A DNA stretch of 64,000 bases from NCBI GenBank assembly GCA_958295805.1, contig OY282373.1:1335001-1399000 (forward strand). Direction: 5' to 3'. Below are positions 31,769 through 46,464 of the stretch, in pieces. A program made the position numbers and the translations under genes. The DNA is from an uncultured Nitrospirales bacterium (GTDB lineage: Bacteria > Nitrospirota > Nitrospiria > Nitrospirales > UBA8639). How positions within the stretch are numbered: the first letter of the stretch is position 1; each line of letters opens with the position of its first letter. The notes below the pieces were generated by a model. The model did not search any database. It was not told where the DNA came from and saw nothing but the letters and a program-made list of their open reading frames with translations.

Positions 31769-31788
31769 AAAACAAGCGTGCTCCATAA

Positions 31789-31926
31789 AGAGACTTTTGC
31801 AAAATGTGACTTTTGCAAAATGTCATCCCGAGCCAAAAATGTCACCCAGAGACCAAAATGTCATTCTGAAACCAAAATGTTATCCTGAGCCCAAAATGTC
31901 ATTCTGAGCGAAGCGAAGAATCTCCA
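31789..31926. repeat. 19-bp tandem array ending in a family A repeat, after nuoN
   Basis: Units beginning AAAATGTCAT occur at 31817, 31836, 31855, 31874 and 31893, each exactly 19 bp apart, with the pattern AAAATGTYAYYCWGARNCC. The last unit merges into a standard family A element (attctgagcgaagcgaagaatctcc). On the left, AGAGACTTTTGCAAAATG at 31791-31808 resembles the end of the MITE-like element between nuoA and nuoB, and TTTTGCAAAATG is repeated at 31811. Confidence 0.88.
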
Positions 31927-31965
31927 GGTTACGTCGTGTTGAAGTCTGGCCGGAGTGCAACGCCG

Positions 31966-32394
31966 TTAGCGGTGCTTGGTCACCGGCTTGAAAGGGTTCA
32001 CGTGACGCACTCCCGTCGGCGCGATATGTTTCACGTTGCGTGTCACGACGACAAGGTCGTGGACAAGCGCGGTGGCGGCGATGAGTCCATCGACGTCCGG
32101 AAGAGAATCGGGAATGCCAAGACGGCCCCATTGCTCTGCGACGGCTTGATCGACGTCCAGAATACGATCCTGAAACCGATCCAGAATCCGATCTAACCAC
32201 GTGCCAATAATGCGGGCGGTCTTCGGGTCGCGGCGGTGAATGCGTTCGACGCCGCGCCGCAGTTCGCCCAGGGTCAGGACGCTCAGGAACACTTCCTGTG
32301 GCTTGTGTCTCTGGAACCAATCCAAAACGAGGGGATGCGCACGCTCACGCTTGCGGAGTTCAGACAACACGTTGGTGTCAATGAGGTAGTTCAC
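31966..32394 (-). CDS. vapC: VapC-type PIN-domain toxin
   Basis: The 142-residue protein is a PIN-domain ribonuclease. It has the N-terminal IDTNVLSELRK (first catalytic Asp), a middle acidic residue in TLGELRRG, and a C-terminal DVDGLIAATALVHDLVVVTRN block with further catalytic acids. VapC toxins cleave tRNA or rRNA. The start overlaps the stop of the upstream gene by 4 bp, the standard antitoxin-toxin coupling. The upstream partner is however not a simple VapB but a longer protein with an added winged-helix region. Confidence 0.9.
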   Translation of the reverse strand: MNYLIDTNVLSELRKRERAHPLVLDWFQRHKPQEVFLSVLTLGELRRGVERIHRRDPKTARIIGTWLDRILDRFQDRILDVDQAVAEQWGRLGIPDSLPDVDGLIAATALVHDLVVVTRNVKHIAPTGVRHVNPFKPVTKHR

Positions 32395-32957
32395 ATCTCT
32401 ACCCCACGTGGGCCTGAACGTGATCGTTTGAAATCAGCATCGTCGCCGGCGTTCGGCATCGCGAGCAGGTGGTCAATAAAGTTCTCAGGTCCCTCCGCGA
32501 GCGATTTCGCAACGTAGCTGGCTCCTTTCTCGGAGAGTTTCCACACGCCACGTTTGGAGTCGCCTCGAAGATAGCCCTCCTCTTTCAGCCTGTTTCGCTC
32601 CCAGCAAGTCGCACTCCACCACCGTGGTTGGCCCGTCGAAACGGGCACGAAGTCGTCGGGAAGTAACTTGGGCGCCATGCGCTTTTCCATGATCGGCCGC
32701 AACTTTTCCACCTGTGCGGTCCCGCCCATCTCGTAGATGACCTCCAAAAGTGGACGGCGAAACTCTTCCTGCGGCAGTTTCTCTTGGGCACTCCGTCGCC
32801 TCGGTTGCCTGCCGACCACGGTTTTTTTCGGTGTCACACGTTCGCGCTCCGCCGCGTCCAGCACCTTGACGAAGGCCGATTCCGCCGTGTCTTCAAGCGG
32901 TTTTGCCCACTTTTTAAGGCGATTCATCGTCTCTTCTGAAATCCGAATGACCGGCAT
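32391..32957 (-). CDS. RHH plus Mrr_N-like fusion, putative antitoxin of VapC
   Basis: Starting at ATG 32957, behind a strong AGAAGGAGG site, the 188-residue protein has two parts. Residues 1-40 (PVIRISEETMNRLKKWAKPL) look like a ribbon-helix-helix DNA-binding antitoxin head. Residues about 75-165 (LLEVIYEMGGTAQVEKL, QPRWWSATCWERNRLKEEGYL, GVWKLSEKGASYVA) resemble the N-terminal winged-helix domain of Mrr restriction proteins (Mrr_N). Between them is a basic linker. It overlaps vapC by 4 bp and would be the antitoxin and autorepressor. Such a composite antitoxin is unusual to me. The Mrr_N assignment is by pattern recall, not search. Confidence 0.72.
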   Translation of the reverse strand: MPVIRISEETMNRLKKWAKPLEDTAESAFVKVLDAAERERVTPKKTVVGRQPRRRSAQEKLPQEEFRRPLLEVIYEMGGTAQVEKLRPIMEKRMAPKLLPDDFVPVSTGQPRWWSATCWERNRLKEEGYLRGDSKRGVWKLSEKGASYVAKSLAEGPENFIDHLLAMPNAGDDADFKRSRSGPRGVEM

Positions 32958-33234
32958 GATGCCTCCTTCTGTATTTGTAGACAACTGTTACTTTGAAACA
33001 ATGTTTTTACTCAATCACCAAGCTCCCGTCAAGTGGAAAATCATGTTCTTGGCCTGTAAGCTTGGATAGGATATAACGACGAAACGAAGAGTGAACCGGG
33101 AAGCCCATGAATGAAACTGCCGCACGTATACAAATCAACAAGCAAGAGAGTGCTGGCACGCACGCTCGCCTGAATGATGGCGTCGCGTGACAAGGAGCAG
33201 GACACCTTCAAGGTAAGCCGTTAAGGAAACTGAC

Positions 33235-36200
33235 GTGCCTGAACAGCTTTTCACTCATTACTTTCTCTCCTACGGCATAAGGGCGACAACCGAGTGGAAG
33301 GCTTCAGTCGCCAAGCCGGAGGCATTTGCCGCCTTCAGGGACGGCATCTGTTCCCGTTACGAAGCCTTCGCCACGTTTCATGATCCTAATGAAGCCGTCA
33401 CCGAGCAAGAATTGATCCGGCCGGTTTTGGAGCTATTGGGATGGATGGATTACCTGCCGCAGCAAGGCATGATTCGCAACGAGGACGTTCCCGATCTTCT
33501 GCTGTTCTCCGACCCCGAGGCCAAAGAGCGCGCCGCCAAAAAACACAAGCCCAATGAACGTTACTGTGACGCCGCGGTTGTCGAAGAGAGCAAACGATTC
33601 CGATTGCCGTTGGACTCCCGTGGCGGAGACAACGGTACGCAGTCCAGAACGCCGCACGGCCAGATTCTCGGATATCTTTCGACGGCCGAGATTGTTTCAG
33701 ACGGCCGAATTCGATGGGGCATCCTGACAAACGGCGGTACGTGGCGACTCTACGATTGCCGTTGCCGACCCCGGGCCAGCGGGTACTTTGAAGCCGACCT
33801 GGGAGAACTGATTCAACCCGACCGCGAAGACGACCTGCGCGTGTTCTATCTCCTGTTCCGCCGAGACTCCTTTATTCCGGAGCATGGGGCCACGACCAGC
33901 TTCCTGGAAGCGGCGTTGATCGAGGGGCGCCGCTATGAGGATCAGGTTGCCCAAGACCTTTCGTGCGTGGTCTTCGATCGCGTGTTCCCCAGTCTCGTCC
34001 AGGCGATGGCCGACGCCACGGGCCTGTCTGCGTGCCCCGCACAGGCAGGCGAGAGTCTCGCACAAATCCGGGAGGCAGCCCTGATTTTTTTGTATCGACT
34101 GCTCTTCGTGCTGTACGCCGAGGACAGGGGACTCCTACCGGTCAACGACTCGCGTTACGACGACTACGGGTTGCGAAAACGAGTACGTGACGACGTTGCG
34201 CGGAGGACAACCGACGGAGACACGTTCTCAAGCCACGCCACCAGCTACTATGACCATCTGATGACGCTCTTCGGGCTTATTGACAAGGGCGATGCGTCCA
34301 TCGGCCTGCCGCCGTACAACGGCGGTCTGTTCGCGTCCGAGACCGCTGCGTTGCTGGAAAGCATTCGCTTGGCCGATGCGAAGATCGCTCCGATCATCGA
34401 CGACCTGAGCCACTCGAAAGACCTGAACCAGGAACGCCGCTTTGTCAATTACCGCGACATGTCCGTCCAGCAACTCGGCTCAATCTACGAACGGCTTCTG
34501 GAGCGCGAGCCGGTCCGCGATGGGAACGGAAACATCGTCATACGACCAAACCCATACGCCCGAAAGGACAGCGGCAGCTTCTTTACGCCCCAGGAACTTG
34601 TCGATCTGATCGTTGACCGGACGTTAAAACCGCTGGCGGAGGAGCGTCTCAAAGCGTTTAAAGCCAAGGCCGTTGAACTGAAACGCGACCGTCGTCCAAA
34701 GGACGCACGACGAGCCGACCTGCTCAAGCTCGACCCGGCTGAGGCCATCCTGAACTTGAAAGTCCTGGACCCGGCCATGGGAAGCGGCCACTTCCTGGTC
34801 ACCGCGGTGGACTTTCTGTCCGACTACGTCGCCCACCTGATCGAATCCACGCCGGCGGTGCCCGAATGGCTCAATGGCGAGTACGTGTCGCCGCTGGTTC
34901 AGCGCGTGGAGACGATTCGCAGAGACATCCTGCAACGGGCAAAGGAAGCCAACTGGGTGATGGATGAGACCCAACTGACCGACCAGGCTATTATCCGCCG
35001 AATGGTCCTGAAACGCTGCATCTACGGCGTAGACAAAAATCCCCTGACGGTGGAACTGGCGAAAGTGTCGTTGTGGCTGCACAGTTTCACCGTCGGCGCG
35101 CCGTTGTCTTTCTTGGACCACCACCTGCGTTATGGCGATTCCCTGGTCGGCTTGCGGGTGTCGGAGGCAACCGAAGACTTACGGAACATCGCCGAGCTCT
35201 TTCTCTCAAGTGCCATTGCCGGAGCCGAGGCCGCCACTGAAGGGATGCAGCGCATTGAGGAATTGTCCGATGCCGACATCGCCGAAGTCCGGGAGTCGGC
35301 AAGGCTGTTCGATGGCGTCGATACGACGACCGCGGAGTTGCGTGGCTTGCTCGACTTTCTCTGCGGTTTCCGGTGGCTGACCGCGGGCATGAAAAGGGGA
35401 GACCGCGATGCGTTCAAGAAGCAGCACCTGTCGGAACCGATCGGGCGGTTTCCAGCGAAAATCTATGAACTTCTCGCCAATGGTCCGAGCGTCATCACCG
35501 CCGAGTCGTCAGAAGAAGGGGAGGCTCTGTTGTCGAAGTTTGCCGAATTGTGGGATCGAGCCAGAGACGTTGCCGACCGGGAAGGCTTTCTGCACTGGGA
35601 GGCGGCCTTTCCTGGGGTGTGGCGCCATTGGCAAAACGTCCGCCCGGAGGGAGGCTTTGACGCGGTGATCGGCAACCCGCCTTGGGACCGCATCAAACTT
35701 CAGGAAGTGGAATGGTTTGCGACTCGTGACCCGGAACTTGCGTTCGCTCCGACTGCCGCGGCGAGGAAGGCGGCCGTTCAGCGGGTACGAGAGCAGGGGG
35801 CGTTGATTGCAGACCAGTTTGACGCGGCCAAGGAACAAGCCGAGAGCCTGAGCCGGATGGTTCGGTCGTCTGGCCATTACCCCTTGCTCAGCGGCGGCGA
35901 TATCAACCTGTACTCGCTGTTCGTGGAGCGGGCCATGAATCTGCTCAAACCCGACGGTTTGGTAGGCCTGCTCACGCCGTCGGGTATCTACGCCGACAAG
36001 ACTGCCGCCAAATTTTTCAAGTCCGTTTCCACCAGCGGACGCATCGGTGGCCTGTTTGACTTCGAGAATCGCCGCCTTGGAACAGAACTGCCGCCTTTTT
36101 TCCCAGACGTGGACTCGAGGTTCAAGTTCTGCGCCCTCATCTTCGGTGGAGAGAATCGACGGTTCGATGAAACCACGTGTGCCTTCTTCCTGCACGACAC

Positions 36201-37311
36201 GCGCACGGTTGACGACCCTGACCGCTGCTTCTCACTGACGCCGGACGACTTTGCCCGTGTCAATCCGAACACCTGCACCGCGCCCGTGTTCCGTACCCGC
36301 CGAGACGCCGAGATCACCCGCCGCATCTACGAGCACCATCCGGTCCTGGTGGACCGTTCAAGGGGTAAAGAAACTTGGCCGATTAGATACCGGACCATGT
36401 TCCACATGGCCAACGACTCTCACCTCTTTCGGACGTCGTTACAGCTTGAAGCTGAGGGCTTCTACCCGGTCGAAGGCAATCGATGGAGGAAGGGGGCTGA
36501 TGTGCATGTAGCTCTGTACGAGGGCAAGATGGTGCAGGCGTTTGATCACCGTGCGGCCAGTATCGTCAACAGGGACGGCAACCTGTTCCGACCCGGGCAA
36601 CCGGACAGAACCCTTGACGAAGAGCATCATGATCCGGCTTTCTCACCTCGTCCTCGCTATTGGGTCAATCAGCAAGATAGTGCGGCTGCCAAGAGATTTG
36701 ATTGGTTCCTGGCTTTTAAAGACATTACGGCCTCAACCAACGTCCGCACCATGATTGCTGGTATCGTTCCACAAGTCGGATGTGGACACACGCTGCCTGT
36801 CCTGATTCCGGCCGAAGACGGCTTTGATGGTGCAAGCACGGCCTGTCTCCTGGCCAACCTCAACAGCTTCTGTTTCGATTACGTTGCACGTCAGAAAGTC
36901 CAAGGCACTCACCTCACTTGGTACACCGTCGAACAACTCCCCGTCATTGCGCCCGACGACTACAAGCGGCAATTCGGAAACACAACGGCCCGTGAACTCG
37001 TCCGCAATCACGTGCTCCGCCTGACCTACACGGCCCACGACGTGGCCCCCTTCGCCCGCGACCTCGGCTACACCGGCCCGCCCTTCATCTGGGACGAAGA
37101 AGAACGCCGACACCTGCGGGCACGGCTCGACGCCCTCTACTTCCACCTCTACGGAATCACCCGGGATGACGCCGCGTACATCCTGAGCACCTTCCCCATC
37201 GTCCAACGCGAAGACCACACCCGATTCGGCACCTACCGCACCCGCAACCTCATCCTGGCCTACATGAACGCCCTAACCGCCGGCGACACCGACACGGTCG
37301 TCGCCGTGTAG
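33235..37311 (+). CDS. Type IIG-like (Eco57I-class) restriction-modification protein
   Basis: The 1358-residue protein combines nuclease and methylase. The N-terminal part has a PD...ExK...Q pattern (Asp87, Glu118-Ser-Lys120, Gln143) typical of Type I/IIG nucleases. The methylase part has motif I DPAMGSGHF (residue about 512) and motif IV NPPWD (about 814), separated by a helical insert of some 300 residues. The C-terminal 400 residues would hold target recognition. Start GTG 33235 is set by AAGGAA 6 bp upstream. Standalone proteins of this type cut and methylate unaided; the similar BREX methylase PglX is an alternative, but no BREX partner genes are present. The gene opens the defence island. 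Confidence 0.87.
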   Translation: MPEQLFTHYFLSYGIRATTEWKASVAKPEAFAAFRDGICSRYEAFATFHDPNEAVTEQELIRPVLELLGWMDYLPQQGMIRNEDVPDLLLFSDPEAKERAAKKHKPNERYCDAAVVEESKRFRLPLDSRGGDNGTQSRTPHGQILGYLSTAEIVSDGRIRWGILTNGGTWRLYDCRCRPRASGYFEADLGELIQPDREDDLRVFYLLFRRDSFIPEHGATTSFLEAALIEGRRYEDQVAQDLSCVVFDRVFPSLVQAMADATGLSACPAQAGESLAQIREAALIFLYRLLFVLYAEDRGLLPVNDSRYDDYGLRKRVRDDVARRTTDGDTFSSHATSYYDHLMTLFGLIDKGDASIGLPPYNGGLFASETAALLESIRLADAKIAPIIDDLSHSKDLNQERRFVNYRDMSVQQLGSIYERLLEREPVRDGNGNIVIRPNPYARKDSGSFFTPQELVDLIVDRTLKPLAEERLKAFKAKAVELKRDRRPKDARRADLLKLDPAEAILNLKVLDPAMGSGHFLVTAVDFLSDYVAHLIESTPAVPEWLNGEYVSPLVQRVETIRRDILQRAKEANWVMDETQLTDQAIIRRMVLKRCIYGVDKNPLTVELAKVSLWLHSFTVGAPLSFLDHHLRYGDSLVGLRVSEATEDLRNIAELFLSSAIAGAEAATEGMQRIEELSDADIAEVRESARLFDGVDTTTAELRGLLDFLCGFRWLTAGMKRGDRDAFKKQHLSEPIGRFPAKIYELLANGPSVITAESSEEGEALLSKFAELWDRARDVADREGFLHWEAAFPGVWRHWQNVRPEGGFDAVIGNPPWDRIKLQEVEWFATRDPELAFAPTAAARKAAVQRVREQGALIADQFDAAKEQAESLSRMVRSSGHYPLLSGGDINLYSLFVERAMNLLKPDGLVGLLTPSGIYADKTAAKFFKSVSTSGRIGGLFDFENRRLGTELPPFFPDVDSRFKFCALIFGGENRRFDETTCAFFLHDTRTVDDPDRCFSLTPDDFARVNPNTCTAPVFRTRRDAEITRRIYEHHPVLVDRSRGKETWPIRYRTMFHMANDSHLFRTSLQLEAEGFYPVEGNRWRKGADVHVALYEGKMVQAFDHRAASIVNRDGNLFRPGQPDRTLDEEHHDPAFSPRPRYWVNQQDSAAAKRFDWFLAFKDITASTNVRTMIAGIVPQVGCGHTLPVLIPAEDGFDGASTACLLANLNSFCFDYVARQKVQGTHLTWYTVEQLPVIAPDDYKRQFGNTTARELVRNHVLRLTYTAHDVAPFARDLGYTGPPFIWDEEERRHLRARLDALYFHLYGITRDDAAYILSTFPIVQREDHTRFGTYRTRNLILAYMNALTAGDTDTVVAV

Positions 37312-37701
37312 CTCTTCTTTATCTGATGAAGAAATAAGTGTGGCTGTATCAGCCCGAAGTCTGGGAAGAAGGATTAGTCGAGAAAAAAACAGTGAATAAA
37401 CTTCATTTAAGCCATAATATTCACGCGTGTTTTGTATAATTCCGTGAATTTTCCGACTTGAGGGCATTAAGGGTAGAAGTGAAGCAAGAAGATGATTACG
37501 TCTACCGGCCTAAGATGAATAGATTCAATTACCAGAACACTTCAGACGAATTCTCAGAAGGATGTGTAGATGGTAGCCCTATGGCGGATTATGTTACACT
37601 AATCCGACCTACAGGCTGAGTTGCTTGTTATATCTGCTTGCAGATGAGATATATTGTATTTCGGTCAGGCTTTGGTTAAGTGAAAAAAGGAACAAACGCA
37701 T
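37312..37701. promoter_or_regulatory. Leader of the TIR gene, with a family D repeat and a palindrome
   Basis: This AT-rich 390-bp gap has no gene. An inverted repeat CGGATTA (37585-37591) / TAATCCG (37600-37606) is a dispersed element, with a relative at 39571-39596. A palindrome ATCTGC-TT-GCAGAT lies at 37632-37645, about 56 bp before the TIR start, and could be an operator. AAGGA precedes ATG 37702 at a suitable distance. Promoter boxes are not certain. Confidence 0.45.
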
Positions 37702-38622
37702 ATGAGTGACCCGAAGGCCTTTATTTCATATTCATGGGATGATGATCAGCATAAAGAGTGGGTCGCAGAGTTAGCCACTGACCTTCGAAATGACGGCGTC
37801 GAAACAATTCTTGATCAGTGGCACGCCGTGCCTGGAGATCAACTACCAGAGTTTATGGAGAAACATATCCGCGAAAACGACTATGTACTGATTATTTGTA
37901 CTCCCAACTATCGATTTAAGTCCGATGAGCGCAAAGGCGGCGTTGGATATGAAGGAGGCATAATGACAGCAGAGGTTCACACCTCACGTAATCACAGAAA
38001 ATTCATTCCAATCCTCGCTCGAGGAACGTGGGAAAATGCTGCTCCCTCGTGGTTGAAGGGTAAGTACTACATTGATCTGTCCTCGCTTGATAAACACAAA
38101 GAGAACTATTCAGACTTACCAGCCACATTGCTAGGACAGAATCCAGTTGCTCCACCTTTACGAAGTTCTTCGCAAATCAGCTCAAGGTTGCAGACGAAGA
38201 AATCTTCTTCGAATGATCCACTCAAGATTGTTGGTGTCATTGTTGATGAGGTTACGGAGCCGACTATGGATGGCACCCCGGGATCTGCGCTATACACCGT
38301 ACCTTTTCGTCTGAACAGACAACCTTCTTCACTTTGGTCTGATATTTTTGTGCGGACATGGAACTCACCGCCAAGTTTTAGTTCAATGCATAGACCAGGG
38401 ATTGCAAGAGTAATCGGTTCGAAAATTATCTTGGATGGCACTGCGATTGACGAAGTGAAGAAGTATCATAAGGAAACTCTGATTTTGTGCGTTAATGAAG
38501 CTAACGAGAAAGAAGCTAGAATTCTAGACAATAAGCGACAAGAGAAAGAGCGACAACGCCAGCGGACAGAGAAACACAGAGAGATAGTCAAGAATATTGC
38601 CGACGATCTTAAATTTGATTAA
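37702..38622 (+). CDS. TIR/SEFIR-domain protein with unassigned C-terminal domain
   Basis: The 306-residue protein starts with a TIR/SEFIR-type domain (residues 1 to about 150): KAFISYSWDDDQHKEWVAEL, ILDQWHAVPGDQLPEFMEK, VLIICTPNY, and KFIPIL. Bacterial TIR domains often cleave NAD or make cyclic-ADP-ribose signals in anti-phage defence; the SEFIR subgroup has been linked to NAD depletion. Residues about 175-265 form a second globular region (IVGVIVDEVTEP, LWSDIFVRTWN, LILCVNEAN) I cannot assign, ending in a charged coiled coil (NKRQEKERQRQRTEKH). The C-terminal region may sense the trigger or oligomerise. Base composition is AT-rich relative to the core genes, fitting transfer. Confidence 0.83.
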   Translation: MSDPKAFISYSWDDDQHKEWVAELATDLRNDGVETILDQWHAVPGDQLPEFMEKHIRENDYVLIICTPNYRFKSDERKGGVGYEGGIMTAEVHTSRNHRKFIPILARGTWENAAPSWLKGKYYIDLSSLDKHKENYSDLPATLLGQNPVAPPLRSSSQISSRLQTKKSSSNDPLKIVGVIVDEVTEPTMDGTPGSALYTVPFRLNRQPSSLWSDIFVRTWNSPPSFSSMHRPGIARVIGSKIILDGTAIDEVKKYHKETLILCVNEANEKEARILDNKRQEKERQRQRTEKHREIVKNIADDLKFD

Positions 38623-38683
38623 CAGACATCCGTAGTGATTGACCATGTCGGGAAAAAATCCGTAGGTTAGATTAACGTCTGTC

Positions 38684-38800
38684 TTAGCGAAACCTTTGCA
38701 AAAGTTGAATGCCTGCGGTCTGACGCTTGTCGATCGGAAACGTCAAGTATGACTTCTGGATTCCCGTCTGCGCGAGAATGACGGTTTTGCAAATATTCCG
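38684..38800. repeat. Family B repeat copy with a TTTGCAAA fragment
   Basis: TCTGGATTCCCGTCTGCGCG then AGAATGACGG (38756-38784) is a family B copy with an imperfect hairpin. GAAACCTTTGCAAAAG at 38689-38704 resembles the end of the MITE-like element between nuoA and nuoB. No gene lies in 38623-38843. Confidence 0.65.
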
Positions 38801-38843
38801 TATTTGGGGATGAGGCCTGAGCAATGATCCCCAAAGGATTTGA

Positions 38844-39113
38844 ATGCCTGAAATTTGTCGATTTTTCGGCATCATCATACGAATGTACGCTGAGCCTGTC
38901 GGTCCTCATCACCGACCTCATTTCCACGCTTATTACCAAGATGACGTTGGTGTCTATGCCATTGATCCCATTGAATTGATCGCTGGTGCATTGCCTAGGC
39001 GACAACAGCGTCTGGTCGAGGCTTGGGCAGAGTTGCATCATGAAGAATTACTGGAAGATTGGGAACGATTACAATCGGGGTACTCGCTTTTCAAAATCGC
39101 TCCTCTTCAATAA
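38844..39113 (+). CDS. DUF4160 protein, putative toxin-antitoxin component
   Basis: The 89-residue protein matches DUF4160 in size and motifs: PEICRFFGIIIRMYAEPVGPHHRPHFHAYY (read in parts: GIIIRMY, HHRPHFHA) followed by a WAELHHEELLEDW helix. ATG 38844 follows AAAGGA. DUF4160 genes are regularly paired with DUF2442 genes, as here (gap 11 bp), and the pair is thought to be a toxin-antitoxin-like module, though I know of no firm mechanism. Confidence 0.8.
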   Translation: MPEICRFFGIIIRMYAEPVGPHHRPHFHAYYQDDVGVYAIDPIELIAGALPRRQQRLVEAWAELHHEELLEDWERLQSGYSLFKIAPLQ

Positions 39114-39124
39114 AGGAGAACGGT

Positions 39125-39427
39125 ATGCGTCATCCCATATATCGCGTAGTTTCTGTTGAAAGACAGGCACCTTACACGCTTCGGGTTTGTTTCGACGATG
39201 GTACGGAACAGGTTATTGATTTCCATGCCATACTCGAAGGCGAATTATTCGGTCCACTTCGTGATCCCTCCTTATTTGACCAAGTTCGGATTGATCCTGA
39301 AGTTCATACTTTGGTCTGGCCGAACGGGGCTGATTTTGATCCTGCTACCTTGCACGATTGGCCTGAACATCTTCCTGAACTTACGAGAATGGCCAGGCGC
39401 TGGTCTCTTGCCGAATCGAAGTCTTGA
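39125..39427 (+). CDS. DUF2442 protein, partner of DUF4160
   Basis: The 100-residue protein is a DUF2442 member: PYTLRVCFDDGTEQVIDF, LEGELFGPLRDPSLFDQV, LVWPNGADFDPATLHDWP. The final WPNGADFDP.TLHDW motif is diagnostic. It starts at ATG 39125, behind AAAGGAGAA. A truncated, slightly diverged copy of the region from codon 19 onward reappears at 43968-44263 beside another defence module, showing local duplication. Confidence 0.85.
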   Translation: MRHPIYRVVSVERQAPYTLRVCFDDGTEQVIDFHAILEGELFGPLRDPSLFDQVRIDPEVHTLVWPNGADFDPATLHDWPEHLPELTRMARRWSLAESKS

Positions 39428-39570
39428 CCTACATTTGAACTTTTTACTGATACGTTCTGGTTGATCCTGTGTGGCCTGCACCGTTTGATACTGTCGTGTA
39501 ACTTCTATCTGTACGGGGTGAGGTCTACGCCAAAGTCCGTCCTTGAGGCAGAGAAGCCTCAGCGATATGT

Positions 39571-39596
39571 CGGATTACGCTTTGCTAACCCGACCT
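39571..39596. repeat. Family D inverted repeat, second copy
   Basis: CGGATTA-CGCTTTGC-TAACCCG forms an imperfect hairpin, related to the copy at 37585-37606. The two copies flank the TIR and DUF4160/DUF2442 genes. Similar GGATTACGC..GCTAATCC elements are widespread in bacterial genomes. Nothing else is visible in 39428-39637. Confidence 0.6.
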
Positions 39597-39637
39597 GCTG
39601 GCCTTTGAGGTATTGTTTGCAATATGCCGATAGGGAG

Positions 39638-40348
39638 TCACCAGATAAGGCTTACCATCATTGAGACTACAAGTGAGACCACAAAGGTGATTATGATTCC
39701 CCAATGGACCTTCTCTCTTATTTCATAACGGTGTTCTCCTTGACCAAATGCGAAATAGCCTACAGGGAAAAGCCACGATTGCAGCTTGTCCAATCCCTTC
39801 GCTACATACACGATAATGATACCTCCGATAATACCTAGCTCAATATTAGTTATCGACGTTTTCGATAATCTATCCAAACTGACATGGGTCTTCACAGCCA
39901 AATATGTCAATAGAATGCATAGAAAAAGAGAAAGGAGAGAAAGGGGAGAACGGAAATCTACTCGCGCTAGGAAAGAGTACCACGGTTTAGTTCCGTCCAA
40001 AATATCGAAAATTTTATCTTTGACCTCTGAGCACACTTGCTCCGGTGCTTCGACCAAAATTCGGATACTACTCTTGCTCCATTGATCATCCGAGAAGTCA
40101 ACTTTTGTGGACTTGCTCCAATTCGTAGATCGTGAGCTAATCGAGAGCTTAATAATCTCCTTCGCAGGCGGATTATCATACGAGGCTAGTTCCTTCCAGG
40201 CGTCGAATTTTCTCTCTATATCATCCGAACATTCCGCCGATGCCTCAGCGGTGCCAATACGATCCTCTAGCAATTCCCAGAGTTTCTGAAGATCGGGTAA
40301 CCGAACAACGAAGGCATGTTCGCGTCTTGTCCTAATGGTCGTCTTCAA
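39638..40348 (-). CDS. Membrane protein of unknown function in the defence island
   Basis: I do not recognise this 236-residue protein. The N-terminal about 125 residues are soluble and mixed charged (DDIERKFDAWKELASYDN, SIRILVEAPEQVCSEVKDKI). The C-terminal part has three hydrophobic segments (about 132-152, 166-184 and 213-234) and a short amphipathic stretch (YFAFGQGEHRYEIREK) between the last two. A soluble sensor with a multi-helix membrane part is common among abortive-infection effectors, and it sits between toxin-antitoxin and TIR genes, but function is only a guess. It is divergent from its neighbours and AT-rich. Confidence 0.55.
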   Translation of the reverse strand: MKTTIRTRREHAFVVRLPDLQKLWELLEDRIGTAEASAECSDDIERKFDAWKELASYDNPPAKEIIKLSISSRSTNWSKSTKVDFSDDQWSKSSIRILVEAPEQVCSEVKDKIFDILDGTKPWYSFLARVDFRSPLSLLSLFLCILLTYLAVKTHVSLDRLSKTSITNIELGIIGGIIIVYVAKGLDKLQSWLFPVGYFAFGQGEHRYEIREKVHWGIIITFVVSLVVSMMVSLIW

Positions 40349-40476
40349 TTCTAATCCTTGATATTCGTCAACAAGTAACTGTCATATCTCTGTCATTACC
40401 CAGATATCACTGCCAACTGCAACTAGAGTGGTCGGTTGGGTTACCTGTCTGCGTCAGTAGATATGGATCATTTGCG

Positions 40477-40671
40477 TTGGTTGTCGCCAATTTCAAAGTC
40501 AAACTCGTTTTTCTTGAACTAATCAATCCACTATTAAACCGTGTCTTGGCAGAAGATCGCGAGGTACGAAGGTACGATGTGTTGCGGCCCTTGGTAAAAG
40601 CGAAAGATACGGCTCTTGAGCGCCTTGATCGAGTTCTTGGCCTCTCTCAAGCGAAAGAGCTTTTTGTATAG
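40477..40671 (+). CDS. Short open frame, possibly a gene remnant
   Basis: A 64-codon frame encodes a helical-looking peptide (LVFLELINPLLNRVLAEDREV, ERLDRVLGLSQAKELF). It has no clear ribosome site and I recognise no domain. It may be the tail of a decayed gene. The surrounding stretch 40349-40794 otherwise shows nothing except the leader of the next gene. Confidence 0.25.
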   Translation: MVVANFKVKLVFLELINPLLNRVLAEDREVRRYDVLRPLVKAKDTALERLDRVLGLSQAKELFV

Positions 40672-40794
40672 ATATTTTACACAGTTCTTGAAAAGAAAAT
40701 ATACATCACTTATACTAAAAAGCGTTCACTTCATCAAGAAACAAAAGCATTGACACATTCACGCGGATAGCAAAAGGCGAAGTAAGATATCTCT

Positions 40795-41562
40795 ATGCTT
40801 GGAAATTTTATTCAAAGGCAACGGAGCAAGCGCAACATGACACAAGAGTATCTTGCGTCAGAGCTTGATTTGTCTCGTCCGACCTATATACAGATTGAGC
40901 GCGGTGGACGGGAACTGACAATCGTCGAAGCCAAAAAGCTTGCGGGGATTTTTGATGTGTCGCTGGAAGATTTTTTGGCTGGCCGCGAGACGAAGCATAC
41001 TGTGAAACTCACCAAACCGTCTGCGCGAAAAACCGACGCCCTCCAGATTCGCGTTACAGAAAAAAATCTTGATACGTTCAGGCAGGTTCTGCTTTATGTC
41101 TTGAACAAGGTCGGCGGTAAGCCGAACGTGGGTGAGACCGTGCTCCATAAACTGCTGTATTTCATCGATTTCGATTATTACGAGAAATTCGAGGAGAACT
41201 TAATGGGCGCGACGTACATTAAAAATCGTCATGGCCCGACGTCGGTTGAATTGGGTTCGATTCTGAAGGATATGCAGGAGAGTGGAGACATTGAGGCAGT
41301 TAGAAGTCAATATTTTAAGTATGGTCAGAAAAAATATCTTCCACTCAAGCGTCCCAATCTTGATGCGCTTTCTGCTCGCGACGTGGAACATATTGATGGG
41401 GTGTTGGCCCGTCTCTCTGATAAAAATGCGAAGGAGATAGAACAGTATTCCCACGAAGATATTCCCTGGAAATCCGCGCAAGATGGCGAGCCGCTTTCGT
41501 ATGAGAGCGTCTTTTACCGTGACGAGCGGTACTCCGTGCGAAACTATGACGATGAACTTTGA
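40795..41562 (+). CDS. HTH plus Panacea (DUF4065) antitoxin
   Basis: The 255-residue protein begins with an XRE-type helix-turn-helix (FIQRQRSKRNMTQEYLASEL, then SRPTYIQIERGGRELT). After a linker, residues about 95-235 resemble the Panacea/SocA-like DUF4065 domain (NVGETVLHKLLYFIDFDYYEK, GATYIKNRHGPTSVELGSIL). Panacea is a promiscuous antitoxin domain known to neutralise many toxin types. The HTH would give autorepression. The downstream RelE-like gene overlaps its 3' end, confirming a two-gene module. Confidence 0.85.
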   Translation: MLGNFIQRQRSKRNMTQEYLASELDLSRPTYIQIERGGRELTIVEAKKLAGIFDVSLEDFLAGRETKHTVKLTKPSARKTDALQIRVTEKNLDTFRQVLLYVLNKVGGKPNVGETVLHKLLYFIDFDYYEKFEENLMGATYIKNRHGPTSVELGSILKDMQESGDIEAVRSQYFKYGQKKYLPLKRPNLDALSARDVEHIDGVLARLSDKNAKEIEQYSHEDIPWKSAQDGEPLSYESVFYRDERYSVRNYDDEL

Positions 41563-41890
41563 TGAACTGCCGGAATTTCAAAAAGAACGGAAGCGTTTTG
41601 CCAGGAAATATCAATCACTTTCCGAGGATCTCCAGGAGTTTCAGAACGTTGTTTCCGTTGTTCCGCTTGGGAAGCGTAAACATTTTACCGTCATCGCCCA
41701 GGACGAAATGTTGCGTATTATTAAAGCGCGGTTGTTTTGCCGATATTTCAAAGGATCATCACTTCGCGTCATTTACTCCTACTTTGAACAGGAACAGCGA
41801 ATTGAATGTATTGAGATTTATGACAAAGGAAACCAGAAAAACGAAGATCGTGAGAGAGTGAGAGCGTATTTGACCAGGCATCAAAAATAA
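41546..41890 (+). CDS. RelE/ParE-superfamily-like toxin paired with Panacea antitoxin
   Basis: The protein of about 114 residues (ATG 41546 or 41552, both inside the antitoxin's last codons) has DELPEFQKERKRFARKYQSL followed by RIIKARLFCRYFKGSSLRVIYSY and IECIEIYDKGNQ. That is the helical-hairpin then beta-sheet plan and the basic KARLFCRY/LRVIY strands of RelE-type toxins, which cut mRNA on the ribosome. The family call is by pattern only. The last 41 codons are duplicated as a fragment at 44373-44496. Confidence 0.75.
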   Translation: MTMNFDELPEFQKERKRFARKYQSLSEDLQEFQNVVSVVPLGKRKHFTVIAQDEMLRIIKARLFCRYFKGSSLRVIYSYFEQEQRIECIEIYDKGNQKNEDRERVRAYLTRHQK

Positions 41891-42036
41891 TTCCCACAAT
41901 CGTTTAGAAAACCGAAGTCGCCCAAACCCTCGTCGCTACCAAGCACGAGATGGTGGAAGCGATGCAGAGTAAGATGGCCTTTGGTTGTTGGCCAGGTAGA
42001 TGGGGAAAATGATAGGTGTTCCAGAGGAGACAGATT

Positions 42037-42717
42037 CTACGCGAACAGTTTCTTAAGCCAAGCTAAAAAAATTTGGCAGAGGTCACCGTCAACGTTCAAA
42101 TCGTGCGAGCCAATGGCTGAACCCATTTGCCTGGGATTTTCTCTGGCTGCGAGCCACGCATAAAGTTCAGCCCGCCGTGTCTTAACCTCTGGAAACTTTC
42201 TGTCGGCTTTCGAAATCTCTTCGATATATTGTTTGGCCAGCGGCCATACGGAGTCGCCTTCGGGAATCATTCGCATGACGAAATCTTCAAGTTCGCCGGT
42301 TGACGCATTGTCGGGCATGAGCCAGATACCGACGCGGGGTTGGCCATCTATGATTGTCCCTGTTCGTTGGGGTGACGGGGGTGCTTGGATGTTCGCCTTC
42401 CGAAGGCGATTGGTTACATCGTTCCAACGTGCGTCTATATCGTTGTTTGCATCCACGAGAATGCCGACGGCCTTCCGGCCTGGCGTTTTGATTTCGAGAC
42501 TAATCGCATCAAGCAATTGGTTGATGCCGCCCTTGTCTAAAATGGAAAAGGCTGATGTCGGTTGAGATGGATAAAGCCGAACAACAGGCTCATTCTTTGA
42601 TGATTCTGCATCGGAAAAGGATGGACAGCGATTACAGAGGTGCAGAACGACATGTTTGTCGTCCGGTCCTTCGACTAAAAGAACGCCATCCGATGACGGC
42701 GAAGTCGGGCCGGGCAT
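42037..42717 (-). CDS. DUF3226 TOPRIM-like protein, partner of the AAA ATPase
   Basis: The 226-residue protein resembles DUF3226: LLVEGPDDKHVVLHL at the N-terminus supplies the TOPRIM glutamate, and AVGILVDANNDIDARW plus GIWLMPDNASTGELEDF supply the D-x-D-like acidic motifs. TOPRIM domains of OLD-family and PARIS effectors are metal-dependent nucleases, so this may be the effector. It starts 3 bp after the stop of the ATPase gene, so it is translated from the same message. The C-terminus (IGSHDLNVDGDLCQIFLAWL) is helical. The nuclease role is inferred from family. Confidence 0.78.
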   Translation of the reverse strand: MPGPTSPSSDGVLLVEGPDDKHVVLHLCNRCPSFSDAESSKNEPVVRLYPSQPTSAFSILDKGGINQLLDAISLEIKTPGRKAVGILVDANNDIDARWNDVTNRLRKANIQAPPSPQRTGTIIDGQPRVGIWLMPDNASTGELEDFVMRMIPEGDSVWPLAKQYIEEISKADRKFPEVKTRRAELYAWLAARENPRQMGSAIGSHDLNVDGDLCQIFLAWLKKLFA

Positions 42718-42720
42718 ACG

Positions 42721-43830
42721 CTATCTGACCTCAATGCCTTGTTTGGCCGCGACTTGGAGTTCTTCTTCGGAATACTCAACGACGCGGATTCCATCGTCGT
42801 TTCTCTCAAGACGAATGAGAACCCCGTCCACTTCCTCTAAATTTATTGCTGCTTGCGCAAAACCTGTCACGCAATCCCAGCTATGAGTCGTAGCAAGAAC
42901 CTGGACGTTGTTTTCATGCGCCGTTTTTATCACCATCTTCCAAAAATCGGGTTGGACTGAGTGATGGATACCGTTTTCCGCTTCATCGATAACAAAAAAT
43001 CCGTCTTGACTGTTGGCGAGTGCCAAGGCAACACCGAACAACCGCGTTGCTCCATCACCGAGGCTTTTCAAAGGAACGGGATGATCTTGCCCTTCTATCT
43101 TGACTAACGCCCGGCGACGATGGAACGCACGACGTTCCTCATCCCCAACCATTGCAACACGGACGACTTCGCCGCCATAGATCAATCGCAACGCCTGTAC
43201 CGCTTGGGTTTCATAATCTGTAAGTGCTACGTTATCCCAAAACCTCGCCATGCTTGTATTGTCTATTATGCTTGGTCCTGAAGATTCACATCGGATTGGA
43301 GGTGGAAGCTCGGATTCAGTAGGCCGCAGTCCGCGATTTCGGAAACGAGATGAATGCAAGAAAGAACGCATCGAGATTACTTGTGTTTTATCCTGACACT
43401 CGATTGCAAATAAAGGTTCGTCGCCAGCGGAAAAATCCTCAAGGAAAGACAGATTCTGTTGCAGATTTGGGCTAACTCTGATGTTAAGTCGCTTTGTATG
43501 GTTTGCCGGACCTATTGATATGAAAGAATCTGACGAGGGGTTCCGGCCATAGAAGAGAGCCTCAAAATCAGGCACCAACATCGCATCGCCGTCCTCGTCA
43601 CTAGAAGCCGTAAGTTCCTCTCGGCTCTGCAATACGTTCATGAGTTCGGGATAGCCGCGTGCGGCATAGATGCGGACGGCATCAAGGAGAGTGGTCTTGC
43701 CGACGCCGTTTTTCCCTGCAATCAGCGTGACGCGACCTAGCCGTGGAATCGAGATGTCGGCGATTCCACGAAATCCCTTGATCGATAGTTCAGGAAGATG
43801 GAGGTCTGTTTTAGATGGTTTTGTGTCCAT
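42721..43830 (-). CDS. AAA ATPase of the OLD/RecF/SMC type (AAA_21-like)
   Basis: Starting at ATG 43830, the 369-residue protein begins with LSIKGFRGIADISIPRLG and Walker A AGKNGVGKTTLLDAV. It has a long insert, an ABC-type signature region (PLKSLGDGATRLFGVALAL), Walker B FFVIDEAENGIHHS and the switch His in LATTHS. This is the ABC-type ATPase of OLD nucleases, GajA and the PARIS AriA subunit, which sense phage proteins or DNA ends. Here the nuclease-like domain is on a separate gene 3 bp downstream. A leftward extension to 43995 is open but lacks a good start. A broken DUF2442 copy overlaps its promoter region. Confidence 0.85.
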   Translation of the reverse strand: MDTKPSKTDLHLPELSIKGFRGIADISIPRLGRVTLIAGKNGVGKTTLLDAVRIYAARGYPELMNVLQSREELTASSDEDGDAMLVPDFEALFYGRNPSSDSFISIGPANHTKRLNIRVSPNLQQNLSFLEDFSAGDEPLFAIECQDKTQVISMRSFLHSSRFRNRGLRPTESELPPPIRCESSGPSIIDNTSMARFWDNVALTDYETQAVQALRLIYGGEVVRVAMVGDEERRAFHRRRALVKIEGQDHPVPLKSLGDGATRLFGVALALANSQDGFFVIDEAENGIHHSVQPDFWKMVIKTAHENNVQVLATTHSWDCVTGFAQAAINLEEVDGVLIRLERNDDGIRVVEYSEEELQVAAKQGIEVR

Positions 43831-43923
43831 AAACTGCTCTTTCTCATGTCGGTCATTTCGTAGATGTTTGTTACTCCATCTTTGTTCAGTCACCAAACCA
43901 GTGGTGTTGTCGCGTTCTCCATT

Positions 43924-44263
43924 ATGGGGGATTCCGGTGAAAATGCAAGTAATGAGAAAGATATTCGGGTTTGTTTCGACGATGGTACGGAACAAGTTAT
44001 TGATTTTTGGGCTATCTTAGAGGGTGAAGTCTTCGGTCCACTTCGTGATACCTCCTTATTCGGCCAAGTTCGGATTGATCCTGAAGTTCATACTTTGGTC
44101 TGGCCGAACGGGGCTGATTTTGATCCTGCTACCTTGCACGACTGGCCTGAACATCTTCCTGAACTTACGAGAATGGCCAGGCGCTGGTCTCTTGTGGAGT
44201 CGAAGCCTTAACTTGCCTTTGAACTTCTTGCCGATACGGTCTGGTTAATCCTGTGCGGCCTGC
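43924..44263 (+). pseudogene. Truncated DUF2442 copy
   Basis: From 43968 to 44263 the DNA matches 39181-39480 closely, covering DUF2442 codons from RVCFDDG to the stop plus about 50 bp of downstream DNA. The N-terminal strand (MRHPIYRVVSVERQAPYTL region) is missing; an in-frame ATG at 43924 would add unrelated residues. No DUF4160 partner accompanies it. Probably non-functional debris from duplication, placed at the 5' side of the ATPase gene. Confidence 0.75.
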
Positions 44264-44372
44264 ACGCTTGGCCCTTTGGGCAATGTTCCTCCGCTTTCCT
44301 GCAAGCAAATTTTTTAACCCACAACCGGCAAGCGTCTGAGACGAAGACGGAACGGTTCGATGAAGTTTGAAG

Positions 44373-44496
44373 GGATCATCACTTCGCGTCATTTACTCCT
44401 ACTTTGAGCAGGAACAGCGAATTGAATGTATTGAGATTTATGACAAAGGAAACCAGGAAAACGAAGATCGTGAGAGAGTGAGAGCGTATTTGACCA
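44373..44496 (+). pseudogene. C-terminal fragment of the RelE-like toxin
   Basis: The 124 bp match 41753-41876 with few changes (constant offset of 2620 bp), encoding GSSLRVIYSYFEQEQRIECI and following residues. The N-terminal two thirds of the toxin and its antitoxin are absent, and the frame then runs into unrelated sequence. This is a duplicated remnant. Confidence 0.8.
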
Positions 44497-44550
44497 AGTC
44501 GAGATCAAGAATCACGAGTACGACGATGTTGCCTTCTATGCCCAAGACGA

Positions 44551-44982
44551 TCAGAGTGTCTCAGGAAGAATGGTAAATCCTTCTCGATAGCCCACGTCAC
44601 GCAGGTGTCGGTCGAACGTAACAAAGCCTTGTCTCGTTGTGAGTCCCTGGCACCACTGGATGGCTGCGGCGAGTTGTAACGCGTCCGCTGTTCGTAATGG
44701 ATGCACGGTCAGGAGCCGTTCGGCCGTGCTGCGTAACGCTTCGCTGGGTTGCATTTCCACCCAGGTTTGCATCAGGGTCTGCAAGACGTGCCTGGCCATG
44801 CGTTCGTCCGTGGATGTCAACCCGCCTTCCCGTACCCGTCGCATCAGTGCAGAAATACACTCGGTGCGCGTGCCCCACCACACGACCATAGACGATTCTT
44901 CGATGAGAATTTCTCGCACGGTAGCCGAGTGAGGTTCCTGCACACAGAGGGGCACAATGGCCGACGTATCCCAGAATTTCAT
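44551..44982 (-). CDS. PIN-domain toxin (VapC family)
   Basis: The 143-residue protein has the PIN fold markers MKFWDTSAIVPL (first Asp), TRTECISALMRR (Glu), LRTADALQLAAA (Asp) and FVTFDRHL (Asp). It would be an RNase toxin. Its start overlaps the stop of the upstream Phd/YefM-type antitoxin gene by 4 bp. It is only distantly similar to the VapC at 31966-32394. Confidence 0.9.
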   Translation of the reverse strand: MKFWDTSAIVPLCVQEPHSATVREILIEESSMVVWWGTRTECISALMRRVREGGLTSTDERMARHVLQTLMQTWVEMQPSEALRSTAERLLTVHPLRTADALQLAAAIQWCQGLTTRQGFVTFDRHLRDVGYREGFTILPETL

Positions 44983-45269
44983 CGGCCTTCTTTTCTCTCA
45001 CGCAAAACTGTCGAACGCACTGTCGCTTGGGGGTCTGCTGGACGCGGCAGGTTCCAAAAATCCACTGGCAAGGGCTTCTCTCCGCGCTTGAGGAGACCCT
45101 TTTTTTCCATGTCTTTGACGTGTTCAGGTAGGGACATGGGATTGGTGATGGGAAGCAAACGCGCAATGGGACGGCCATGATCGGTAATGAGCACCTCTTC
45201 ACCGGATTTGACCTGACGTAAGTATGCACTTAATGACGTTTTGAGCTGAGACACAGTGGTCGTTTTCAT
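44979..45269 (-). CDS. Phd/YefM-type antitoxin
   Basis: The 96-residue protein has the antitoxin fold signature at its N-terminus: TTTVSQLKTSLSAYLRQVKS, then GEEVLITDHGRPIARLLPI. The C-terminal half, which would wrap the PIN toxin, is basic and proline-rich. It is directly coupled to the downstream toxin gene and should autorepress the operon. Confidence 0.9.
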   Translation of the reverse strand: MKTTTVSQLKTSLSAYLRQVKSGEEVLITDHGRPIARLLPITNPMSLPEHVKDMEKKGLLKRGEKPLPVDFWNLPRPADPQATVRSTVLRERKEGR

Positions 45270-45321
45270 TGTGTGACCATTTTGGTTAAGAGTTTCACGC
45301 CAGTATAGTCAGGAGAGTATT

Positions 45322-45435
45322 ATGAAGCAAATGATCGCGGCCATTGCGTTGGTGAGGAATCTCACCATCGTTACGGCCAATATCCGACACTTCCAACGGG
45401 TTCCCGGGCTCCCTGTAGAGAATTGGTTATTGTAA
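45322..45435 (+). pseudogene. C-terminal fragment of a vapC gene
   Basis: A 37-codon frame encodes IAAIALVRNLTIVTANIRHF followed by a PGLPVENWL ending, the typical last third of VapC toxins with the final catalytic Asp/Asn strand. The N-terminal two thirds are absent. It is a remnant of a third PIN toxin in this stretch. Neither fragment end shows an obvious insertion element. Confidence 0.75.
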
Positions 45436-45631
45436 GCCACAGGGTCGAAGGGAAGAATCTTCCACTGAACAGTTTATTACAAGTTAAGAGCAGATCCTTC
45501 ACTTCGTTCAGGATGACAGGAGGGAGAACAGGGTGACAGGAGGGAGAATAGGGTGACGGGCGGGAGAATAGGGTGACGGGCGGGAGGCAGGCGGGTAGGG
45601 GAATGACGCTTGGGTCCCACACAATCTCTCA
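45436..45631. repeat. Family A remnants and a 20-bp tandem array
   Basis: Family A pieces (gtcgaagggaagaatctt; ccttcacttcgttcaggatgacagg) run into four exact-period 20-bp units at 45511-45530, 45531-45550, 45551-45570 and 45571-45590 (core GGGTGACRGGMGGGAGAAYA). No gene is supported in this stretch. Confidence 0.85.
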
Positions 45632-46372
45632 TCAAGAGAGCGGAACGTCTTCGTTGAATAGTTGCGGGTTGGAGGTTGTCAGCTTGTCTAAGAGAATCGG
45701 GTCCAGGGTTGCTTGGGCGAGAGTTCGGGTTTTGGCGAGTTGCTCGGGCTGAAGGTGTTGCGCGTCTTCCATATTCGTGCGTGCCAAGTTGGTCTGGATG
45801 AACGAGGTGTTTTGGAAAGAGGCGTGGCGAAGATTTGACTGGGCGAGCGAGGCATGGGCCAGATCTGCATGATCCAGGAGTGCGTGTTCTACGTGTGCGT
45901 TCGTGATGGAGGCTTCTCGTAGTTTTGCATGTCTGATATCCGCTGCATTGAGGGTGCTCCGTTCTAGATTGGCCAAGTGGAAATTTGCATGGGCAAGATT
46001 CGCGTGGGAGAGGTCTGTCCCTGACAGATCTGCCTTCAAGAACGTGGCGTGGCTGAAGTCGGCCTTGCTGAGATCAGCGTGACTCAGGTCGGCTTCATTC
46101 AGGTTGGTATCGTTTCCTTTGGCTCCCGTGACCGTTGCATGGAGAAGATTGGCTTCCCCTAAATTGGCTCCTTCAAGCTGCGCATACGACAGGTCGGCTT
46201 GCGTCAGGTTCACATCGTGCAAATTGGCGCCCGTCAGGTCGGCTTCCGCTAAGTTCCATCCCGACAGATTCGCACTTGAGAGGTCGGGACGAATGGAGGG
46301 ATTGGTTGCTCTAAAGGCATTCCATCGGCTTGCCCCGTGTTTGAGCAGTTTGATGTGTTCAGGGTTGGCCAT
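45632..46372 (-). CDS. Pentapeptide-repeat protein
   Basis: The 246-residue protein is built from about 30 A(D/N)LXX pentapeptide units from residue 28 to 205 (ANLSGWNLAEADLTGANL and onward), which fold as a right-handed quadrilateral beta-helix. It has no signal peptide or membrane helix. Some members mimic DNA and protect gyrase (Qnr, MfpA), but most have no known role. Several repeats have His at the third position (ADLSHADLSKADFSHA), a compositional quirk. Function unassigned. Confidence 0.88.
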   Translation of the reverse strand: MANPEHIKLLKHGASRWNAFRATNPSIRPDLSSANLSGWNLAEADLTGANLHDVNLTQADLSYAQLEGANLGEANLLHATVTGAKGNDTNLNEADLSHADLSKADFSHATFLKADLSGTDLSHANLAHANFHLANLERSTLNAADIRHAKLREASITNAHVEHALLDHADLAHASLAQSNLRHASFQNTSFIQTNLARTNMEDAQHLQPEQLAKTRTLAQATLDPILLDKLTTSNPQLFNEDVPLS

Positions 46373-46464
46373 GGGCGCCCGGCAGTCTGCTGCTATAAGA
46401 GAAGTGCCGAATGGTTTCGTCCGGTCGAAGCCGAACGATTGTGGACTGCTTCAATACGGGTTGC

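Follow-up and report, generated by a model that had tools for sequence, protein, structure and literature searches.

PIN-domain toxins are well documented to occur with many types of antitoxins. The solved structure nearest to the toxin described here is that of FitB (E 1.7e-14), the PIN toxin of the VapBC-type system FitAB of Neisseria gonorrhoeae (PDB 2H1O, 2BSQ). Its antitoxin, FitA, has ~77 residues, with a ribbon-helix-helix (RHH) head of the FitA type and an arginine-bearing C-terminal tail, and the operon is autoregulated (PMC3384007). In FitAB and in Shigella VapBC, the tail arginine of the antitoxin enters and blocks the active site of the PIN domain (PMC3384007). A longer arrangement, in which a COG2442 antitoxin is fused to a winged helix, was described in 2009 for the Rv2018–Rv2019 pair of Mycobacterium tuberculosis (PMC2701414).

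Here, we describe a vapC–antitoxin pair found in the window (i.e. the entire 64,000-nucleotide stretch of DNA analysed, from an uncultured Nitrospirales bacterium). The pair resembles FitAB in its toxin, in the RHH head of the antitoxin, and in the arginine-bearing tail, but the antitoxin has 188 residues and combines a SeqA_N-like head with an Mrr_N domain, whereas FitA is without a winged helix. Phd/YefM–VapC modules, including those that sister genomes carry at the same site by nuoN, have a VapC related to that of the window, and two Phd antitoxins encoded on plasmids carry the tail motif of the window antitoxin; however, the DNA-binding domain of these antitoxins has the Phd fold, where the window antitoxin has an RHH head and a winged helix. 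Rv2018 is, like the window antitoxin, long, associated with a PIN toxin, and extended by a winged-helix domain, but COG2442 is a winged-HTH rather than an RHH antitoxin, and Mrr is not reported in PMC2701414. Mrr restriction endonucleases share the Mrr_N winged helix, but their catalytic (PD-(D/E)XK) domain has no Pfam match in the 188-residue protein. Finally, SeqA_N-headed proteins (NF047386, ‘SepA family’, and others) have the same type of N-terminal head, but their C-terminal parts differ and no vapC adjoins those examined. No description of Mrr_N or SeqA_N in an antitoxin was found in the literature searched, which covered few subscription papers; what is new is the particular composite antitoxin and its operator, as fusion of a winged helix to a VapB has a published precedent in Rv2018.

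The gene pair and the parts of its antitoxin

The features of the pair and its surroundings are collected in Table 1.

Table 1. Features of the vapC–antitoxin pair and neighbouring genes, in window positions
Feature	Position	Strand	Basis or remark
vapC, predicted PIN-domain toxin of FitB/VapC type, 142 aa	31966..32394	(-)	GTG start; PIN 52.3 bits
Composite antitoxin gene, 188 aa	32391..32957	(-)	ATG start; 4-bp overlap with intact vapC (GTGA)
Putative toxin-binding tail, residues 157–188 (PENFIDHLLAMPNAGDDADFKRSRSGPRGVEM), ~30 residues	32394..32489	(-)	Tail profile matches
Mrr_N winged-helix domain, residues 65–149	32511..32765	(-)	PF14338, 33.3 bits; model
SeqA_N-like RHH head, residues 1–39	32841..32957	(-)	NF047386; SeqA_N relatives; model helices
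Ribosome-binding site of antitoxin gene, AAGGAGG	32962..32968	(-)	Read from sequence
Candidate operator, TGTTTCAAAGTAACA	32986..33000	(-)	TGTTAC-N3-GTAACA motif; 28 bp before antitoxin start codon
Type IIG-like restriction-methylase gene, divergent	33235..37311	(+)	PADLOC: REase_MTase_IIG E 4.5e-78, DrmMI E 2.3e-86
TIR/SEFIR protein	37702–38622		Region after nuoN
XRE plus SocA/Panacea protein	40795–41562		Region after nuoN
AAA ATPase with DUF3226	42037–43995		Region after nuoN
Pentapeptide repeat protein	45632–46372		Region after nuoN

The acidic residues expected of a PIN active site (D6, E44, and D102) are invariant in an alignment of seven VapC homologues, and the antitoxin gene lies directly upstream of vapC, co-oriented and overlapping, an arrangement kept in seven loci. 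A first-pass annotation, made from the sequence alone, had given the antitoxin about 188 residues and a 4-bp overlap with vapC; both are correct, the overlap falling at the GTG start of vapC. Third codon positions carry an excess of differences in pairwise comparisons (e.g. 46, 34, and 91 differences at codon positions 1, 2, and 3 between the window antitoxin and that of L061), as is indicative of purifying selection. Canonical VapB/FitA antitoxins are short (~75–90 residues), and their FitA-type RHH domain is followed directly by the tail; the window protein departs from this layout in that the Mrr_N domain is inserted between head and tail.

The RHH-like head that had been proposed for the protein is upheld through relatives and a model; the window head (MPVIRISEETMNRLKKWAKPLEDT) has no match of its own to an RHH profile. 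Residues 1–50 match the N-terminal start of NCBIfam NF047386, the canonical head of one relative (L069) weakly matches SeqA_N (PF17206, 14 bits), and further relatives of the head, with different C-terminal parts, exceed the SeqA_N cut-off (up to 30.9 versus 23 bits), whereas the IRI-type heads of the composite antitoxin family itself score below it. Helices are modelled at residues 8–17 and 25–39 in an AlphaFold2 monomer, with low confidence. Judging from these matches and the model, the head is of the SeqA_N type of RHH.

An Mrr_N-like segment had likewise been proposed, and the fold is detected: the PF14338 score exceeds the gathering cut-off of 29.5 bits, and AlphaFold2 places a winged helix at residues 63–154 (pLDDT near 90 or above). 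The composite of RHH and Mrr_N is further supported by the seven conserved gene pairs. The winged helix itself aligns best with PadR/MarR-type regulators (Z 9–10) and a Hel308 helicase domain (Z 11); DpnI is absent from the structural matches listed. Foldseek with the whole antitoxin model gave no match at E ≤ 0.001, and searching PDB sequences, whether with the antitoxin itself or with the profile of its family, brought up no convincing match.

The tail, which is largely disordered with one helix in the AlphaFold2 model, links the protein to known antitoxins. When a profile was built from the seven tails, it matched, at 9–27 bits overall (18.8–26.9 bits, best domain, for the FitA-type five), the C-terminal ends of seven short antitoxins whose genes adjoin related vapC genes (five FitA-type, two Phd-type); the best score among 2100 shuffled control proteins was 6.4. 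When 7.3 Gb of plasmids were searched with a 34-residue tail query, five weak matches were obtained, three of which end directly at a vapC (two of these on related Sagittula plasmids). The tail arginine R184 is invariant among the seven composite antitoxins, in agreement with the arginine mechanism of FitAB and VapBC, though not as proof of it. Because the tail is homologous to those of FitA- and Phd-type antitoxins, the composite protein is, on this comparison, a modular VapB, in which the toxin-binding tail is shared and the DNA-binding part has been swapped.

Distribution of the pair and its upstream palindrome

Among 84,980 species genomes scanned, 14 loci were found, including six further tail-bearing pairs, four in Binatia (L060–L063) and two in Dadabacteria (L064–L065), with antitoxins 52–64% and VapCs 61–78% identical to those of the window. 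The 4-bp overlap recurs in each, so that, with the window, seven such loci are known and the pair is a real two-gene module of sporadic distribution. The composite antitoxin family is rare: the tail-bearing form occurs in 1 of 247 sampled genomes of the Binatia phylum, in 2 of 57 from the phylum of Dadabacteria, and, among 395 genomes of the window's own phylum, only in the genome that the window comes from. Protein searches brought up no full-length relative in these collections: there was no match among viruses or phages and only partial matches among plasmids.

Every tail-bearing member is followed by vapC, and the members that are without vapC (L066, L067, and L068–L072) are also without the tail; the tail thus goes with the toxin, and the part that binds DNA can be exchanged. 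Among the latter members, the L067 protein stops after the winged helix, and its gene lies near terminase genes. L066 (positions 839–1666, Bradyrhizobium sp. Ai1a-2) encodes an RHH head and Mrr_N followed by the C-terminal domain of RNA polymerase alpha (71.6 bits); the protein seems to bind DNA and to bring its own contact to the polymerase, and no full-length relative of this fusion was found in the plasmid collection. Additionally, a separate headless family (L034, L035, L059, L123, and L127) has a conserved N-terminal NEV..AFEILLEEIE followed by Mrr_N; the gene of L059 adjoins a methylase-like gene and that of L127 lies near an HsdS-like gene (type I specificity). On an Allochromatium vinosum plasmid (L128, positions 489–1126), a vapC and a small upstream partner lie between genes for a DNA methyltransferase and a restriction specificity subunit.

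The palindrome TGTTAC-N3-GTAACA begins 29–47 bp upstream of the start codon in most head-bearing genes, including relatives without vapC. Of 13 upstream stretches of 70 bp, 12 contain GTTAC/GTAAC, a count to be set against the 300 shuffled sets, in which no 5-mer exceeded 9, and the summed palindrome score is 132 (shuffled mean 92, maximum 103). L155 has only half-sites, and L070–L072 have no clear palindrome. The motif is found upstream of L073, which has the same type of head and in which Mrr_N was not detected, and is absent upstream of the headless Mrr_N genes examined; this suggests, for a small sample, that the operator is read by the head. (A search of Chloroflexota for more head genes without Mrr_N yielded too few to assign the operator-reading domain.) SeqA_N-type heads with an IEI strand (L044, L045, L046, and L058) have a different upstream motif, by eye AAGTACTT-like, IRI heads having the GTTAC type; the operator sequence therefore seems to follow the strand residues of the head. 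The window palindrome is unique in the 2.9-Mb genome, but we do not count this as evidence because about one match per genome is expected by chance. No sigma-70 promoter passed in a scan of the window.

Proposed mechanism and competing readings

The domain matches, the conservation of the pair and of its palindrome, and the homology of the tail are shown directly. On these grounds, with a predicted DNA-binding antitoxin and a palindrome before the operon, the locus very likely belongs to the VapBC/FitAB type II toxin–antitoxin modules, its antitoxin being composite, modular, and autoregulating. In the mechanism that we infer, VapC would act as a PIN ribonuclease, and the C-terminal tail of the antitoxin would wrap around and block it, as in FitA and VapB. 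The SeqA_N-like head would dimerize and bind TGTTAC-N3-GTAACA; since this palindrome lies just upstream of the antitoxin's own gene, the antitoxin–VapC complex would repress its own operon, and the conserved palindrome indeed points to autoregulation, probably via the head. The Mrr_N winged helix would most likely make a further contact with DNA, so that binding becomes tighter or cooperative.

The first-pass annotation had instead suggested that such an antitoxin, with its restriction-type reader of sequence and a Type IIG gene beside it, could couple the release of the toxin to the methylation state of the DNA; PADLOC does identify the neighbour as Type IIG-like. Under such a reading, the winged helix would sense modified or unmodified DNA; upon a change in methylation or in invading DNA, the antitoxin would be drawn off and VapC released, so that the module would guard the restriction system or respond to phage. 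Mrr_N takes its name from a modification-dependent restriction enzyme, the prokaryotic winged helices of DpnI and HhiV4I read 6mA (PMC11037411), the surroundings are defence-rich, and some related VapBCs lie within or next to defence operons. However, no homologue of the Type IIG gene was found around the six other pairs. A Pfam and PADLOC scan of their neighbourhoods (complete ORFs of at least 180 aa, up to 5 kb on each side; the L060 contig has 4.3 kb) showed no family of restriction enzymes or methyltransferases in the full PADLOC tally or among the first 25 of 40 Pfam families; the clearest defence protein was a Cas7 protein near one locus. Moreover, the conserved operator is without GATC, the DpnI-type 6mA-reading winged-helix family has no Pfam match in the protein at E up to 10 (weak homology would escape such a search), and the structures closest in fold belong to ordinary PadR/MarR regulators. 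A methylation linkage is thus not supported and was rejected as the main explanation; we regard it as improbable that Mrr_N senses the state of DNA and thereby makes the pair an abortive-infection or restriction-guarding device.

The proximity of the Type IIG gene is explained by a variable defence/toxin–antitoxin hotspot downstream of nuoN. Positions 31769–46400 of the window, downstream of nuoN, are defence-rich; Phd-type VapBC modules lie 0.7–3.3 kb downstream of nuoN in sisters of the same genus (G003, G030, G035, G049, G054, and G062), and other sister species have, by eye, a PIN gene or a restriction-like ORF at this site; the toxin–antitoxin modules found at the hotspot differ between species. 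Since the window VapC is only ~44% identical to the Phd-linked VapCs of sister species, versus 78% to those of Binatia, the module was probably gained horizontally at the hotspot. A controller protein acting on the Type IIG gene would agree with the divergent layout across a common 277-bp intergenic stretch that contains the palindrome and with the headless Mrr_N proteins that adjoin restriction genes at two loci (L059 and L127). Yet this layout is not found at the six other pairs, linkage to restriction-modification genes thus not being conserved, and the palindrome lies close to the antitoxin start, ~235 bp from that of the Type IIG gene; such a role is very improbable, and we judge the Type IIG gene not to be part of the vapC–antitoxin module. 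Least probable of all is an independent regulator that adjoins vapC by chance: the same head and winged helix do occur without vapC (e.g. in L067, near terminase genes, and L066, with its RNA polymerase alpha tail), but the tail always comes with vapC and the same overlap, vapC-less members have no tail, and the tail shares homology with toxin-binding tails already known.

Significance

As a modular composite VapB, the window antitoxin places a VapC-binding tail on a third type of DNA-binding part, after the FitA-type RHH and Phd. Its relatives without vapC, one of them with an RNA polymerase alpha C-terminal domain, indicate a two-domain DNA reader that is combined with other tails. The module comes with a defined operator that is open to direct testing and may thereby provide a simple system in which to ask what a second DNA-binding domain gives an antitoxin.
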